Positions 51,519 to 57,198 of a stretch of DNA of 64,000 nt are shown one piece after another. The position numbers and the translations under genes were made by a program. The stretch is from assembly GCA_029561455.1 (NCBI GenBank), contig JAKQIY010000009.1, positions 1-64,000 of the forward strand, in the 5' to 3' direction. The number at the start of each line of letters is the position of its first letter. The stretch's first letter is position 1. This DNA is from a bacterium. GTDB taxonomy: Bacteria; Zhuqueibacterota; Zhuqueibacteria; Residuimicrobiales; Krinioviventaceae. The notes under the pieces are model-generated. The model did no database searches. It had not been told where the DNA came from and saw nothing but the letters and a program-made list of their open reading frames with translations.

Positions 51519-51676
51519 TAAAAATACTTGGATGGAAAGGAAAAGCTCACCATTTTTTATACCATATTTTTCAAAAATTATATTTATATTAAGAAAAATT
51601 TTGCATTCGACTTTGGTTTTTGACAAATAATTACATGAGCAAAACATGTTTTTGTAAACCAAAACAGGGGCCCAAT

Positions 51677-54202
51677 ATGGCAGAAAAAGAAGCAAAAGCG
51701 CGGATTAAAATAAACAAATACCTCGAAGAAGCGGGATGGCGTTTTTTTGATTCAAAAGAAGGTAAAGCCAACATTCTTTTGGAAAATAATGTAAAGATAA
51801 CTGCAACTTGTTTAAATGAACTAGGGGATGATTTTGATAAAACAAAAAATGGTTATATTGACTTTCTTTTATTAGACGACAAAGGCTTTCCTTTTATTGT
51901 TTTGGAAGCTAAATCCGAAGATAAAAATCCTCTATTTGCCAAAGAACAGGCACGCCAATATGCCAACTCTCAACATTGCCGGTTTGTAATTTTATCCAAT
52001 GGCGATTCTCATTACTTTTGGGACCTTGAAAGGGGGAATCCGCAAAATATCCAAAAATTCCCCTCCCCGGAATTTGTTTCAGGTTGTTCCATGTTTAAAC
52101 CCGACCGACAAAGTCTCGTTAATGAAATCATTAATGATGACTATATTGTCCTGACCCAAAAACCGGATTATAAAACCGATCCTTCTTTTAAAAATGAACA
52201 AATCCGACCATCATATATTGAAATGAATAAATTACGCTTTTTGCGAAATTACCAGGTGAGGGCGGTAAACGCTATTCAAACCGCTGTGAAAAATGACAAG
52301 GATCGTTTTCTTTTTGAAATGGCAACCGGAACCGGGAAAACCCTGGTATCCGCGGCGGTTATAAAGTTATTCTTACGCACCGGTAATGCCCGCCGTGTTT
52401 TATTCCTGGTTGACAGGCTCGAACTCGAAGACCAGGCATACAAAGCTTTTGTTAATTATTTGAAAAATGATTATAAAACCCTTATTTATAAACAAAACCG
52501 TGACGACTGGCGTAAAGCGGAAATTGTTGTATCTACTATCCAAACCTTCCTTGCCAAAAACCGATACAAGAGAAAATTTTCCCCGGATGATTTTGATTTG
52601 GTCATTTCCGATGAAGCGCATCGCAGCATTGGCGGCAACAGTCGCGCTGTTTTTGAATATTTTATTGGTTATAAATTGGGACTAACTGCAACCCCTAAAG
52701 ATTATTTAAAACATATCGATATTGCCGAGCTTGGCGAAAACGACCCGCGCGAACTGGAAAGACGTTTACTCTTAGATTCTTACAAGACTTTTGGTTGTGA
52801 AAACGGCGAACCAACTTTTCGTTACTCTCTCCTCGATGGCGTTAAAGATGGTTTTCTGGTCAATCCCATAGTTGTTGATGCAAGAACCGAAATTACTACC
52901 CAACTGTTATCGGACCAGGGTTATTCAGTACTCGTTTTAAACGATGACGGCGAACCCGTAGAAGAAGTATTTATGCATAGGGATTTTGAAAAAAGTTTTT
53001 TTTCAGAAAATACCAATCGCGCTTTTTGCCATGCTTTTCTGGAAAATGCTTTACGAGACCCTATCAGCGGCGAAATTGGCAAAACCATTGTGTTTTGTGT
53101 ATCGCAAAATCATGCGGCTAAAATTACCCAAATCCTTAATGAAATGGCGCATTTAAAGTTCCCTGAAAAATACAAATCGGATTTTGCTATACAGGTAACA
53201 TCCAGAATAATGGATGCGCAGCAATTTACTCTCAATTTTACCAATAACAAGTTATCCGGAAATTGTAACTTTGATCCTGTTTATAAAACTAGTAAGACCC
53301 GTGTTTGTGTCACCGTTGGCATGATGACGACGGGCTATGATTGTCCCGATGTTTTAAATCTTTGTTTAATGCGGCCGATTTTTTCGCCAACGGATTTTAT
53401 TCAAATCAAGGGACGGGGTACCAGAAAATATAATTTTACTCAGGATGTCATTGATGAAAAGAGCAAGACTCAACTTGGCCCCAGACAAAAAGTACATTAT
53501 AAAATATTCGATTTCTTTGCCAATTGTGAATATTTTGAGGAAAAGTTCAACTATGATGAAATAATAAAATTGCCCTCTGTTAGTAGCGCTACAAATGTAT
53601 TTCCACCACCGCCTCCCCCAACGCCGGAAGGTTATAATTCTGTTAAAGATGATTCAGTTATTTATAAAAATGAAATCAGTATCGGACCGGAAGGAATGAA
53701 AATCGACCGGATGTTCTTTGAAAAATTTGAAAAGAAAATCATTGAACATCCGATTATCAAAGAGAAAGCGGAAGCCGGTAAATGGGAAGAACTGTTGGAT
53801 TATATTGAAAAGAATATACTCGACAAACCGGAAGAATTTTTTACCCTGGAAAAACTGCGTTCCTCGCTGCATATTGACCGGCGCATTACCATGCGGGAAA
53901 TGATTGAAAAAATATTCGGTATGATCCCTTATTTCAAGACCAAAAATGAATTACTCGATGAAGAATTTGATAAATTCGACAGCCGTTACCTGCCGAAAGA
54001 ACAATATTTTAATTATGCAAAAACAGTATTCAAGGCGTATATTAACGATGTTGAATTTAGAAATATTATTGATACCGGCGCTTTTGCTCTGTTGAATGTG
54101 ACCCCTTATGCCGAAGCGTTTAAAAAATTAACTCCTGAACTGCGCAAGGCAATACCGGAATACATTAAAGACTTTGTATCGTTGAACAAATTTGCGGCAT
54201 AA
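51677..54202 (+). CDS. hsdR: type I restriction endonuclease HsdR subunit
   Basis: 841 residues from the ATG at 51677 (AGGGG 6 bases upstream; an in-frame ATG 57 bases earlier yields an unlikely Cys/Lys-rich extension). The N-terminal nuclease has the PD-(D/E)xK residues in GYIDFLLLDDKGFPFIVLEAK (Asp62, Glu77, Lys79). The translocase motor has Walker A ATGTGKT (about 216-222), DEAH (312-315), LTATP and a helicase-C lobe (about 470-620, RPIFSPTDFIQIKGRGTR). A C-terminal helical region binds the methylase. It cleaves unmodified DNA with HsdM/HsdS. Followed by a GxxExxY gene and a fused methylase-specificity gene; the region is AT-richer than the housekeeping genes, consistent with transfer. Confidence 0.93.
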   Translation: MAEKEAKARIKINKYLEEAGWRFFDSKEGKANILLENNVKITATCLNELGDDFDKTKNGYIDFLLLDDKGFPFIVLEAKSEDKNPLFAKEQARQYANSQHCRFVILSNGDSHYFWDLERGNPQNIQKFPSPEFVSGCSMFKPDRQSLVNEIINDDYIVLTQKPDYKTDPSFKNEQIRPSYIEMNKLRFLRNYQVRAVNAIQTAVKNDKDRFLFEMATGTGKTLVSAAVIKLFLRTGNARRVLFLVDRLELEDQAYKAFVNYLKNDYKTLIYKQNRDDWRKAEIVVSTIQTFLAKNRYKRKFSPDDFDLVISDEAHRSIGGNSRAVFEYFIGYKLGLTATPKDYLKHIDIAELGENDPRELERRLLLDSYKTFGCENGEPTFRYSLLDGVKDGFLVNPIVVDARTEITTQLLSDQGYSVLVLNDDGEPVEEVFMHRDFEKSFFSENTNRAFCHAFLENALRDPISGEIGKTIVFCVSQNHAAKITQILNEMAHLKFPEKYKSDFAIQVTSRIMDAQQFTLNFTNNKLSGNCNFDPVYKTSKTRVCVTVGMMTTGYDCPDVLNLCLMRPIFSPTDFIQIKGRGTRKYNFTQDVIDEKSKTQLGPRQKVHYKIFDFFANCEYFEEKFNYDEIIKLPSVSSATNVFPPPPPPTPEGYNSVKDDSVIYKNEISIGPEGMKIDRMFFEKFEKKIIEHPIIKEKAEAGKWEELLDYIEKNILDKPEEFFTLEKLRSSLHIDRRITMREMIEKIFGMIPYFKTKNELLDEEFDKFDSRYLPKEQYFNYAKTVFKAYINDVEFRNIIDTGAFALLNVTPYAEAFKKLTPELRKAIPEYIKDFVSLNKFAA

Positions 54203-54210
54203 CTGTTTTT

Positions 54211-54239
54211 TAACATGGATAAACAAGATAAACAGGATT
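54211..54239. repeat. short repeat 'ACATGGATAAACAGGAT', left copy before GxxExxY
   Basis: TAACATGGATAAACAAGATA followed by AACAGGATTG. It matches the left arm of the palindromes at 54631 and 55945. Its AGGA (54234-54237) lies 7 bases before the GxxExxY ATG and so supplies that gene's ribosome-binding site. Confidence 0.8.
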
Positions 54240-54244
54240 GAACG

Positions 54245-54619
54245 ATGTTATATGAAGAAATAACCGGAAGTATTTTAGATTCTGCATTTATGGTAGCAAA
54301 TGAATTGGGTGCGGGATTTCTCGAATCGGTTTATGAAAAGGCTATGGTCGTTGCTTTAAAGGAAAAACATTTGAATGTTGAAATCCAAAAACCGATTAGT
54401 GTTATTTTTCATAACCAAAATGTGGGTGATTTTTATGCCGATATATTGGTTGAGGATAAAGTAATTATCGAATTAAAAGCGGTAAAAGCAATTCTTCCCG
54501 AACACCAGGCGCAAGTTATAAACTATTTAAAAGCAACCGGCTATGAAGTCGGTCTGTTAATTAATTTTGGGACACCCAAAATTGAATATAAAAGACTAAC
54601 AAGATATAAAGATATTTAA
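54245..54619 (+). CDS. GxxExxY protein (PD-(D/E)XK-like)
   Basis: 124 residues. The family motif is present as GAGFLESVY (Gly24, Glu27, Tyr30) after the opening EEITGSILDSAFMVANELG. The nuclease-like core carries Asp in DFYADILVED and the E-x-K of IIELKAVKAI. It is often annotated as a nuclease-fold protein of unknown role. Here it sits between hsdR and hsdMS in the same orientation and is bracketed by matching short repeats, the left of which provides its ribosome site. Whether it is part of the restriction system or a cassette that arrived with the repeats cannot be decided from sequence. Confidence 0.88.
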   Translation: MLYEEITGSILDSAFMVANELGAGFLESVYEKAMVVALKEKHLNVEIQKPISVIFHNQNVGDFYADILVEDKVIIELKAVKAILPEHQAQVINYLKATGYEVGLLINFGTPKIEYKRLTRYKDI

Positions 54620-54630
54620 AAAGTTAAAGT

Positions 54631-54697
54631 GAAATGGATTAACAGGATTTTGGGAATATATATTTCCATCCTGTATATCCTGTCAATCAATGTTTTA
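54631..54697. repeat. short palindromic repeat between GxxExxY and hsdMS
   Basis: GAAATGGATTAACAGGATTT at the left is mirrored by ATCCTGTATATCCTGTCAAT at 54668-54687, ending CAATGTTTTAA. The right arm is almost identical to that of the copy inside hsdMS at 55984-56013. Confidence 0.85.
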
Positions 54698-54711
54698 AAT
54701 ATACGGATAAA

Positions 54712-57198
54712 ATGCTAGACACCGACACCAAACGACGCATAGATACGGCCCGCGATATCCTTGTAGGTAAAGTTCCCGATCCCAAAAGTCAGGTTGAACA
54801 AATAACCATTGCGCTGATTTACAAGTTCATGGATGACATGGACAAGGAATCTGTGGCGATGGGCGGCAAAGCCAGCTTTTTTACCGGCGATTATGAACGC
54901 TATGCCTGGTCGAAAATTTTCGATCCCCGCCTGGGCGGTTTTGAAATGCTGGCGCTGTATAGTGAAGCCATAATCAAGCTGAACCAAAACCCGAATATTC
55001 CGCAACTGTTCCGTGATATATTCAAGAATGCTTTTTTACCATATCGTGACCCGGAAACACTGAAACTATTTTTAAAAACCATAAACGAATTCAGCTATGA
55101 CCATTCCGAACGACTGGGCGATGCGTTTGAATATTTATTATCGGTGCTTGGCAGCCAGGGCGACGCCGGGCAATTCCGCACGCCGCGCCATATTATCGAT
55201 TTTATGGTGCAGGTAGTCAATCCGCAAAAACATGAAACTGTGCTGGACCCGGCCTGCGGAACGGCCGGATTTCTTATATCGTCCTACAAGCACATTCTCA
55301 AAGAAAACACACAAAAGTACCCCGGTGACTTGTTAACCGGCGATGAAGCCAAAAAATTGTATAGCAATTTTAAAGGTTATGATATTTCACCGGATATGGT
55401 GCGCTTGTCACTGGTAAATTTGTACCTGCACGGTTTTGCCCAGCCGCAAATTATTGAATACGACACGTTGACCAGCGAAGAACGCTGGAACGAATATGCC
55501 GATGTCATTATGGCCAATCCGCCGTTCATGTCGCCGAAAGGAGGGATCAAGCCGCATAAAAGATTTTCGGTGCAGAGTAACCGCAGCGAAGTGTTGTTTG
55601 TGGATTATATCGCCGAACACCTGACGCCCACCGGCCGCGCCGCAGTGATCGTTCCCGAAGGTATTATCTTTCAAAGCGCCGGGGCGTACAAGCAACTACG
55701 TAAAATGCTGGTGGAAAATTATCTTTATGCTGTTGTTTCGCTGCCGGCCGGTATCTTTAATCCCTATTCAGGCGTAAAAACCTCTATTCTTTTAATGGAC
55801 AGACAGATAGCAAAAAAGACTGATTCGATTCTGTTTGTCAAAATAGAGAATGACGGCTTTGGTTTGGGTGCGCAAAGGAGGGAACAGGCCGGTAGCGACT
55901 TGCCCAATGCGGTAAGTGCGCTTGCCGAATGGAAAAAAGCCATCAACATGGATAAACAGGATGGACAGGATAAAGAGGAAAAAATATCCTGTATATCCTG
56001 CTCATCCATGTTTAATTCATTTCTGGAGAGCGGCCTGGCTTTGCCGGTGAAAAAAGTGATGCTGGCGGAAAATGGGGAATATAATTTGACCGGGGACAGG
56101 TATCGAACGACACAAAAAAGGGGGCAACAGAAGTGGCCTTTGGTGAAGTTGGGGGACGTATGTTCTTTTGAATATGGTAAAAGTTTACCGGAGAAGAATA
56201 GAATATCAGGGCCTTATCCAGTAATGGGGTCTAATGGACGAACGGGTTTTCATAATGAATGTCTAGTTGAAGGCCCTGTAATAATTATAGGTAGAAAAGG
56301 ATCTTCTGGTGAAGTTGTTTGGGAAGAACAAAATTGTTATCCCATAGATACAACATATTATATAAAAGTTGATACAAAGCGAATAAATCTAAAGTGGTTT
56401 TATTATATTCTCAAAAGTTTAGATTTAACCAAATTAAGTGGGGGTGCAGGAATTCCTGGTTTAAATAGAAATGATGCTTATTTAAAAGCAATTCCTCTCC
56501 CACCTCTCGAAGTTCAACGCGAAATTGTAGCGGAGATTGAAGGCTACCAGAAACTCATCGATGGCGCGCGGCAAGTGGTAGATAGCTGGAAACCGCAGAT
56601 AGAAATTGATCCGCAATGGCCGATGGTTTTACTGGAAGAATACATTGATTTTGTTAGTGGATTGACACTCTCGATTCCAGAATGTGAAGCAGAAAATGGT
56701 ATTCCAATAATTTCAATGAATAATATTCTAGAAGATGGCACATTGGTAAAAGAAGGTCTTCGATTTATTGATATCCCAAAGAAAAGTGGAATACACTACC
56801 TTCAAAAAGGAGATTTGCTTTTTAATTGGCGTAATGGGAGCAAACATTTAGTAGGTAAGACGGGTTATTTTGATTGGGATGGAGATTATGTATTTGCATC
56901 TTTCTGTCTTGGTATTAGACCTAAACCACAATTTTTTGACAACCGATATCTTTGGTATTTACTTAACATCTACCGTATTGATGGAAAATATCAATCATTT
57001 ATGAGGCAAAATGTAAATGGCTTATTTAACCGCGAAGAACTGAAAATACTGCCCATCCAATTGCCGCCTCTGGCTGTACAACAAGAAATCGTTCTTAAGT
57101 TAGAAACAGAGAGGAATATTATTAATAAATGCTACGAGTTGATAAAAATATATGAAGATAAAATTAAAAGGGTAATTGACAAGGTTTGGGAAGAATAG
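54712..57198 (+). CDS. fused type I methyltransferase-specificity protein (HsdM-HsdS)
   Basis: 828 residues. The HsdM half has the helical N-terminal domain (1-~145), SAM motif I DPACGTAGFLIS (179-190) and catalytic motif NPPF (269-272) for N6-adenine methylation. From about 475 it is HsdS-like: a first target-recognition domain (KWPLVKLGDVCSFEYGKSLP), conserved helix (LPPLEVQREIVAEIEGYQKLID), second target-recognition domain (PQWPMVLLEEYIDFVSGLTL) and terminal helix (LPPLAVQQEIVLKLE). It methylates and specifies the recognition site and would direct HsdR. Between the halves, residues ~411-435 (INMDKQDGQDKEEKISCIS...) are encoded by an inserted palindromic repeat. M and S are usually separate genes, so this is a compact variant. 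Confidence 0.92.
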   Translation: MLDTDTKRRIDTARDILVGKVPDPKSQVEQITIALIYKFMDDMDKESVAMGGKASFFTGDYERYAWSKIFDPRLGGFEMLALYSEAIIKLNQNPNIPQLFRDIFKNAFLPYRDPETLKLFLKTINEFSYDHSERLGDAFEYLLSVLGSQGDAGQFRTPRHIIDFMVQVVNPQKHETVLDPACGTAGFLISSYKHILKENTQKYPGDLLTGDEAKKLYSNFKGYDISPDMVRLSLVNLYLHGFAQPQIIEYDTLTSEERWNEYADVIMANPPFMSPKGGIKPHKRFSVQSNRSEVLFVDYIAEHLTPTGRAAVIVPEGIIFQSAGAYKQLRKMLVENYLYAVVSLPAGIFNPYSGVKTSILLMDRQIAKKTDSILFVKIENDGFGLGAQRREQAGSDLPNAVSALAEWKKAINMDKQDGQDKEEKISCISCSSMFNSFLESGLALPVKKVMLAENGEYNLTGDRYRTTQKRGQQKWPLVKLGDVCSFEYGKSLPEKNRISGPYPVMGSNGRTGFHNECLVEGPVIIIGRKGSSGEVVWEEQNCYPIDTTYYIKVDTKRINLKWFYYILKSLDLTKLSGGAGIPGLNRNDAYLKAIPLPPLEVQREIVAEIEGYQKLIDGARQVVDSWKPQIEIDPQWPMVLLEEYIDFVSGLTLSIPECEAENGIPIISMNNILEDGTLVKEGLRFIDIPKKSGIHYLQKGDLLFNWRNGSKHLVGKTGYFDWDGDYVFASFCLGIRPKPQFFDNRYLWYLLNIYRIDGKYQSFMRQNVNGLFNREELKILPIQLPPLAVQQEIVLKLETERNIINKCYELIKIYEDKIKRVIDKVWEE
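55945..56013. repeat. palindromic repeat inserted in frame inside hsdMS
   Basis: Left arm AACATGGATAAACAGGATGG (from 55945), right arm TATCCTGTATATCCTGCTCA (from 55984) to CATGTTT. It is the same element as at 54211 and 54631, and it adds about 23 codons to the linker between the methylase and specificity halves without breaking the frame. Confidence 0.85.

Follow-up and report, generated by a model that had tools for sequence, protein, structure and literature searches.

The locus

The window, the whole stretch of 64,000 nucleotides analysed here, belongs to a 5.85-Mb genome (G000) and contains a type I restriction-modification operon in which a GxxExxY gene lies, with hsdR before it and a fused hsdM-S gene after it. 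The features of the locus are as follows.

51620..54202, + strand: hsdR, type I restriction enzyme R subunit, the upstream host gene
54203..54711, + strand: the whole cassette insertion, from the hsdR stop to the hsdM-S start
54212..54238, + strand: left arm, AACATGGATAAACAAGATAAACAGGAT, about three 9-mer units forming half of a split palindrome; pairs with the right arm
54245..54619, + strand: GxxExxY gene, 124 aa, PD-(D/E)XK superfamily (TIGR04256/PF13366), Cas4-like predicted fold
about 54634..54697, no strand assigned: complete palindrome 3' of the gene; its outer half, 54668-54694, is the right arm
54712..57198, + strand: fused hsdM-hsdS (N6_Mtase + Methylase_S), the downstream host gene, which holds the solo palindrome
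55945..56012, no strand assigned: third, solo palindrome, in frame in the HsdM-HsdS linker, adding MDKQDGQDKEEKISCISCSSMF

The left arm is separated from the ATG at 54245 by the spacer TGAACG and pairs with the right arm at 22 of 27 positions, counted by eye. The inverted-repeat score across the gene is 16.0, a level attained by 3 of 216 control ORFs from the window's own phylum and 1 of 218 from other phyla. Allowing up to three mismatches, the window has 15 matches to ATGGATAAACAGGAT, while shuffled sequences have 2.5 (shuffle maximum 8). The exact pattern ATGGATNNACAGGAT has copies at the window locus only in the whole of G000. The same genome has nine GxxExxY matches, several of them fragmentary or interrupted by stop codons; fragmented copies lie at C17:758-1265, C4:113039-113376 and C19:48441-48548. 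Such remnants are consistent with decay of a selfish element, a possibility and no more.

The original prediction, made from sequence alone, described a GxxExxY gene bracketed by a palindromic short repeat that supplies its ribosome site. The bracketing is confirmed, and repeat-gene-repeat is a real unit. A complete palindrome had been placed 11 bases past the stop codon; the palindrome held, and the distance is corrected to 14 bases. The third palindrome, at 55945-56012, had been missed. The ribosome-site claim is plausible for the window gene, where AGGA in the left arm lies 8-11 bases 5' of the ATG. This role remains tentative and seems not to be general, because many other cassettes, as judged by reading them, have a separate Shine-Dalgarno-like stretch beside the ATG.

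The arms of the third palindrome are 86% complementary, and the whole is translated in frame inside hsdM-S. In another genome the HsdM-HsdS linker (L288:2740-2960, G043:C30) holds a different palindrome, GTAGGGACGCGCCATGGCGCGTCCCTAC, which starts with GTAG. Judging from the CAGGAT palindrome of the window and GTAGGGACGCGCCATGGCGCGTCCCTAC of G043, this linker tolerates in-frame insertions.

A predicted PD-(D/E)XK nuclease

The window protein matches the TIGR04256 profile at 141.6 bits (cut-off 35) and PF13366 (PDDEXK_3) at 138.7 bits (cut-off 22; E 1.5e-40). These were the only profile matches of the gene; no Y1 HUH, DDE, serine or tyrosine transposase was matched. A PHROGs search with the gene also gave no match, and it is therefore not an evident phage family; PADLOC returned weak partial matches at most, and Rfam a single chance miRNA match below the gathering score. 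The AlphaFold model is confident (pLDDT 93), and Foldseek places it closest, among PDB structures, to the Cas4 protein SSO0001 (4ic1, E 1.3e-5), with alkaline and lambda exonucleases also found. In an alignment of 22 diverse GxxExxY members, E27, D66 and K78 are invariant and Q90 is nearly so. These residues are those expected of an active PD-(D/E)XK enzyme; nuclease activity is a prediction from the model, without biochemistry.

Selection was read from two genomes that carry the gene between pntA and pntB. Between G038 and G039 the GxxExxY gene has dS 0.58 and dN 0.04 (dN/dS 0.07), indicating that, in this pair, the protein is under purifying selection. Two other ORFs read at the same site have dS 0.15. 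The pnt-site gene has apparently been replaced or had a separate history, with an effect of codon usage not excluded.

A TIGR04256/PF13366 gene is present in 73 of 82 genomes of the phylum, in up to 22 copies each. Many of these genes sit no more than a few hundred bases from contig ends; counts from draft genomes are probably too low, because repeats that break assemblies would put genes at contig ends.

Association of the gene with palindromes

Flanking repeats were scored without regard to their sequence, by the best inverted repeat linking the 160 bases on one side of a gene to the 160 bases on the other, with a threshold score of at least 14. In the window's own phylum 53 of 107 GxxExxY genes reach the threshold, against 4 of 216 control ORFs taken from the same loci. 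A second, independent sample of 79 loci, drawn from Bacteroidota, Planctomycetota, Acidobacteria, Chloroflexota, Cyanobacteria, Pseudomonadota, Verrucomicrobiota, the archaeon Methanothrix and others, gives 60 of 79 against 2 of 218 control ORFs. The association of gene and palindrome is general across many bacterial phyla. About half of the GxxExxY genes in the own phylum, and about a quarter in the others, have no strong flanking inverted repeat at this threshold.

Six of the 434 control ORFs pass. Four of them are informative: one is itself a further GxxExxY gene, and the others encode a Y1 (RAYT-type) transposase, a DUF559 protein and a 23S rRNA intervening-sequence (IVP) protein. A fifth, in L182, scores 14; this long ORF has CGCAGAG-type repeats next to it and is taken as chance. 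The Y1 transposase (L121:1006-1476, G030:C238) lies in palindromes ACTCCGTAGGAGTG near a GxxExxY locus; it is a case of the REPIN system, already known, and gave the test a positive control that had not been planned.

Counts of repeat sequences agree with the flank test. The exact ATGGATNNACAGGAT was dropped as a phylum-wide probe, most of its matches being ordinary coding sequence and the motif too specific; it was replaced by ACAGGATN{1,3}ACAGGAT together with the sequence-independent test. The new pattern has 682 matches in the 82 genomes of the phylum and 2 when reversed. Around 111 GxxExxY genes, the 22 kb within 100 bases of the genes contain 5 loci with CAGGAT pairs, and the 480 kb at 0.5-4 kb contain 2. 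At the loci that were read, solo repeat copies lie mostly outside long ORFs.

Across genomes, the number of CAGGAT-type repeats follows the number of GxxExxY genes (rho 0.47-0.50), while CRCNRAG and CRCNRAT arrays track it weakly (rho 0.23 and 0.27). These counts come from one phylum, whose genomes are related, and the correlations carry no phylogenetic correction. Some repeat-rich genomes have 0-1 GxxExxY genes.

The original prediction had it that GxxExxY genes often lie beside such repeats, and would have been refuted by the lack of a statistical association or by repeats equally abundant in genomes without the gene. This is borne out: the repeats are far commoner at GxxExxY genes than at other genes, in many phyla, and the fractions given above exclude the first refutation. 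The second is not met for CAGGAT-type repeats, whose density is 1.95 per Mb in the 73 genomes that have the gene and only 0.06 per Mb in the 9 that lack it. There is one clear exception, of another unit type: G065 (L395-L397) has 56 CRCNRAG arrays and no GxxExxY gene detectable even with PF13366. The gene may have been lost there or may lie in the 15% of the genome that is missing, or something else may drive the repeats.

Anatomy of the cassette

The arms consist of 2-4 tandem words of about 9 bases, which fall into several families (CACAGAG, CGCAAAG, CACGGAT, AACAGGAT and others). Word variants include CACAGAGRN, CGCAGAGRN, CACGGAGRN, CGCAAAGRN, CACGAAGRN, CACGGATNN, CACGAATNN and AACAGGATN. 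The repeat is thus not only ATGGATAAACAGGAT, as first described, but a superfamily of tandem 9-mer palindromes. The position of the gene also needs correction. Among loci with units detected on both sides, the units point inward (upstream on the gene strand, downstream on the opposite strand only) at 42 and outward at 1, placing the gene in the loop of a split palindrome and not merely beside a repeat. In other cases, as in G060 and partly in the window, a complete palindrome stands on each side of the gene. Neighbouring genes are mostly co-directional, at 64 of 88 and 51 of 72 cassettes, and the host operons include trpE/trpG, fabD/fabG and pntA/pntB.

The sequence of the unit co-varies with the protein. 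Among proteins with GPG[LMYF], 76 have G as the last base of the unit and 2 have T; among the other proteins, 32 have T and 2 have G; the last base fits the protein subfamily in 108 of 112 cases (Fisher p 3e-23). On the protein tree this label changes 4 times, against a minimum of 22 in 300 shuffles. Within G-type units the inner letters change 18 times (shuffled minimum 25). This co-variation shows a coherent, long-lived unit, because arms and gene travel together. It is what recognition of the unit by the protein would produce; without biochemistry it is not proof of recognition.

In G003, L025 and L108 have a near-identical upstream context (98% over 85 aa) and carry, at the same site, different GxxExxY cassettes of different unit families. 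In L400 (CP102406.1, a plasmid of Fusobacteria bacterium ZRK30) the gene lies between direct, not inverted, repeats, with GATTTAATCCGTGTACCTAT on both sides.

Empty sites in relatives

A search for empty sites in relatives had been proposed with the original prediction and found them at three places. Only 3 bases lie between the homologous hsdR stop and hsdM-S start in G074 (L286), against 509 bases including the cassette in the window, and the palindrome of the HsdM-S linker is also absent from the G074 homologue. An MFP/RND operon holds a cassette in G041 and G060; G063, G021 and G047 have neither gene nor palindrome there. The pntA-pntB junction, compared within the window's own family, is empty in G037, G042, G035 and the window genome itself. 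It holds a solo palindrome in G043, a gene in a split palindrome in G040, and a gene between palindromes in G038 and G039. Gene and palindrome have been inserted as one unit where relatives have an empty site. Inspection by eye showed no clear target-site duplication at the hsdR/hsdM-S, MFP/RND and pnt junctions, where diverged genomes were compared. All three of G038-G040 carry GxxExxY at the pnt site, and the gene could be vertically old at some sites.

Two further observations were set aside. Sisters among G068, G067 and G069 lack the gene at one site, which was rejected as a clean empty site because other genes differ there too; these genomes (query L154:1500-7500, positions 634-787) show another repeat of about 120-150 bases, with tens of scattered copies in these three species of one genus. 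In G004 (L378-L387) identical CACGGAT palindromes occur at 10 or more places, within a longer multi-copy element with shared flanks. Reading them as a recent burst was rejected on that ground, and they do not count as evidence of independent movement.

Comparison with known systems

The closest parallel is REPIN/RAYT (TnpA-REP). There too, a small nuclease-type gene is flanked by inverted copies of a palindromic repeat that is also dispersed as non-autonomous copies away from the gene, and the REP sequence goes with the protein clade (REP recognition: PMC8266576, PMC3686654, PMC8049555). The enzymes are unrelated: that of REPIN/RAYT is Y1/HUH, while GxxExxY is PD-(D/E)XK (PF13366, Cas4-like). 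REPs have a described GTAG/CGTC tag (PMC3733652), and direct reading of the window palindromes found no GTAG or CGTC tag at the repeat end. Unlike REPIN/RAYT, the GxxExxY arms are tandem words of about 9 bases and the gene sits inside one split palindrome. By analogy, the GxxExxY element resembles REPIN/RAYT in its logic, and it fails the defining test, having no HUH enzyme.

MITEs and insertion sequences with terminal inverted repeats share short size, inverted-repeat ends and an internal-deletion-like relation between autonomous and solo forms. The GxxExxY element differs from them in its tandem 9-mer arms and the lack of a DDE, serine or tyrosine transposase, and it does not belong to any insertion-sequence class with a known transposase; no clear target-site duplication was evident by eye between the diverged genomes compared. 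Homing endonuclease genes, PD-(D/E)XK ones among them, similarly place a nuclease gene amid its presumed recognition sequence. For GxxExxY, however, the target would be a dispersed intergenic palindrome, and the presumed target is missing from most empty alleles. Rickettsia palindromic elements lie in frame in coding genes, as does the palindrome at 55945-56012; no nuclease gene is known to be associated with them. Cas4/RecB-type nucleases are the nearest solved fold and share with GxxExxY a conserved E, D, ExK and Q. Unlike Cas4, the GxxExxY protein has only about 124 aa and no Fe-S cysteines evident in the alignment. No CRISPR-cas association was found in the window, where the neighbours are hsdR and hsdM-S.

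In the open-access literature searched, which leaves out most subscription papers and all bioRxiv preprints, neither a description of a GxxExxY-repeat element nor the repeat-unit strings were found. A GxxExxY passage found there deals with a cas4-like gene next to a reverse transcriptase and not with repeats. The element is probably new, and this novelty is provisional given the scope of the literature.

A proposed minimal mobile element

The favoured reading, with a probability of roughly 0.6, is that the GxxExxY gene and the surrounding palindromes of nine-base units form one minimal selfish mobile element. Its supports are shown: the association, the inward geometry, the match of unit and subfamily, insertion against empty sites, the conserved catalytic residues and the confident model. 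In its autonomous form, the element would be a gene for a small PD-(D/E)XK nuclease, similar to Cas4 and lambda exonuclease, in the loop of a palindrome; its non-autonomous form would be the solo palindrome, mostly intergenic and sometimes in frame within genes. The nuclease is inferred to recognise its own unit type and to cut or process the palindrome as an extruded hairpin, as a cruciform or as ends. This action may let gene and palindrome be copied elsewhere, including by ectopic replacement of existing copies. At the window locus, one gene-plus-palindrome unit would have gone in between hsdR and hsdM-S, and the HsdM-HsdS linker would have received a solo palindrome of that type. The original suggestion that the PD-(D/E)XK-like protein spreads the repeats is still an inference; the co-variation of unit and protein supports such agency, and there are no biochemical or mobilisation data. 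A transposition-like arrival is favoured because most empty alleles lack any palindrome. Homing or ectopic conversion is still allowed, because of the solo palindrome in G043 and the excess dS at pnt.

Four rival explanations can be weighed against this reading. In a homing variant, which is unlikely, the palindromes are older and spread independently, GxxExxY cuts solo palindromes of its own unit type, and the gene is then copied into the loop during repair by gene conversion, so that the nuclease spreads its own gene and not the repeats. The gene does lie in the middle of its presumed target, like homing genes; the pnt site that holds the gene in G040, G038 and G039 has a solo palindrome in G043; the excess GxxExxY dS there suggests ectopic replacement; and G065 has repeats without the gene. 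Against it, the empty alleles at MFP/RND, at hsdR/hsdM-S and, in four of five cases, at pnt lack a palindrome, so that gene and palindrome seem to arrive together, and repeats are scarce in most genomes without the gene. Still less probable is that GxxExxY is a passenger, one cargo gene profiting from palindromes that something else mobilises. The identical-palindrome family of G004, inside its longer multi-copy element, and the repeat-rich genomes with 0-1 genes speak for this. However, the cargo does not look arbitrary, because so few control ORFs pass the flank test and among those examined are a RAYT-type Y1 transposase, IVP and DUF559 proteins and a further GxxExxY; the co-variation of unit sequence with GxxExxY subfamily also counts against it.

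Slightly less probable again is a host use, in which the palindromes are operators, terminators or RNA-processing sites and GxxExxY is a housekeeping or defence nuclease that acts on them or is regulated by them. The preference for co-directional neighbours, the strong purifying selection in one pair (G038/G039) and the place of the window cassette in a type I restriction-modification operon fit this explanation. But presence/absence variation within a family, many copies per genome, the decayed copies in G000, insertions in unrelated core operons (trp, fab, pnt) and the in-frame coding insertion look selfish. That common intergenic repeats merely coincide with a common gene is all but excluded. 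Both are frequent in these genomes, but control ORFs of the same loci pass the flank test at 1-2% against 50-76% for GxxExxY, and the reversed pattern has almost no matches.

Read as a mobile element, the cassette brings together TIGR04256/PF13366, an abundant family without a known role, and tandem 9-mer palindromes, a common repeat class whose origin is undescribed in the literature searched; joining them gives each a function that can be put to the test. With its 124 residues, and with a subfamily that goes with a short DNA word, the nuclease would offer a compact model of how nucleases and repeats co-evolve. Operons and proteins are also remodelled by such elements, which in the window lie in a restriction-modification operon and, in frame, within its methylase-specificity subunit. 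A bolder reading, as a joint claim slightly more likely than not, is that these cassettes are a class of mobile DNA spread across bacteria and at least one archaeal genome, in which a single PD-(D/E)XK nuclease recognises and mobilises, or homes into, palindromes with a matching 9-mer code. If this were true, the protein subfamily could be read from the DNA word. Several such small-gene-in-palindrome systems may exist, this class among them; RAYT, DUF559 and 23S-rRNA-IVP genes were seen here in a like arrangement.

Similar layouts were seen around unrelated genes. A 23S rRNA intervening-sequence (four-helix-bundle) gene, PF05635, at L257:498-875 (Phycisphaerales MAG JADLFE010000013.1) lies in a split palindrome of 9-mers, GGCATCGGGCATC, with an inverted-repeat score of 27 and a GxxExxY-like arrangement around an unrelated protein; another member, in L349, scores 15. 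DUF559 (PF04480) genes at L127:2877-3266 (G028:C74) and in L349 (G068:C3) have flanking inverted repeats with scores of 17 and 18, and may represent another nuclease-in-palindrome system.
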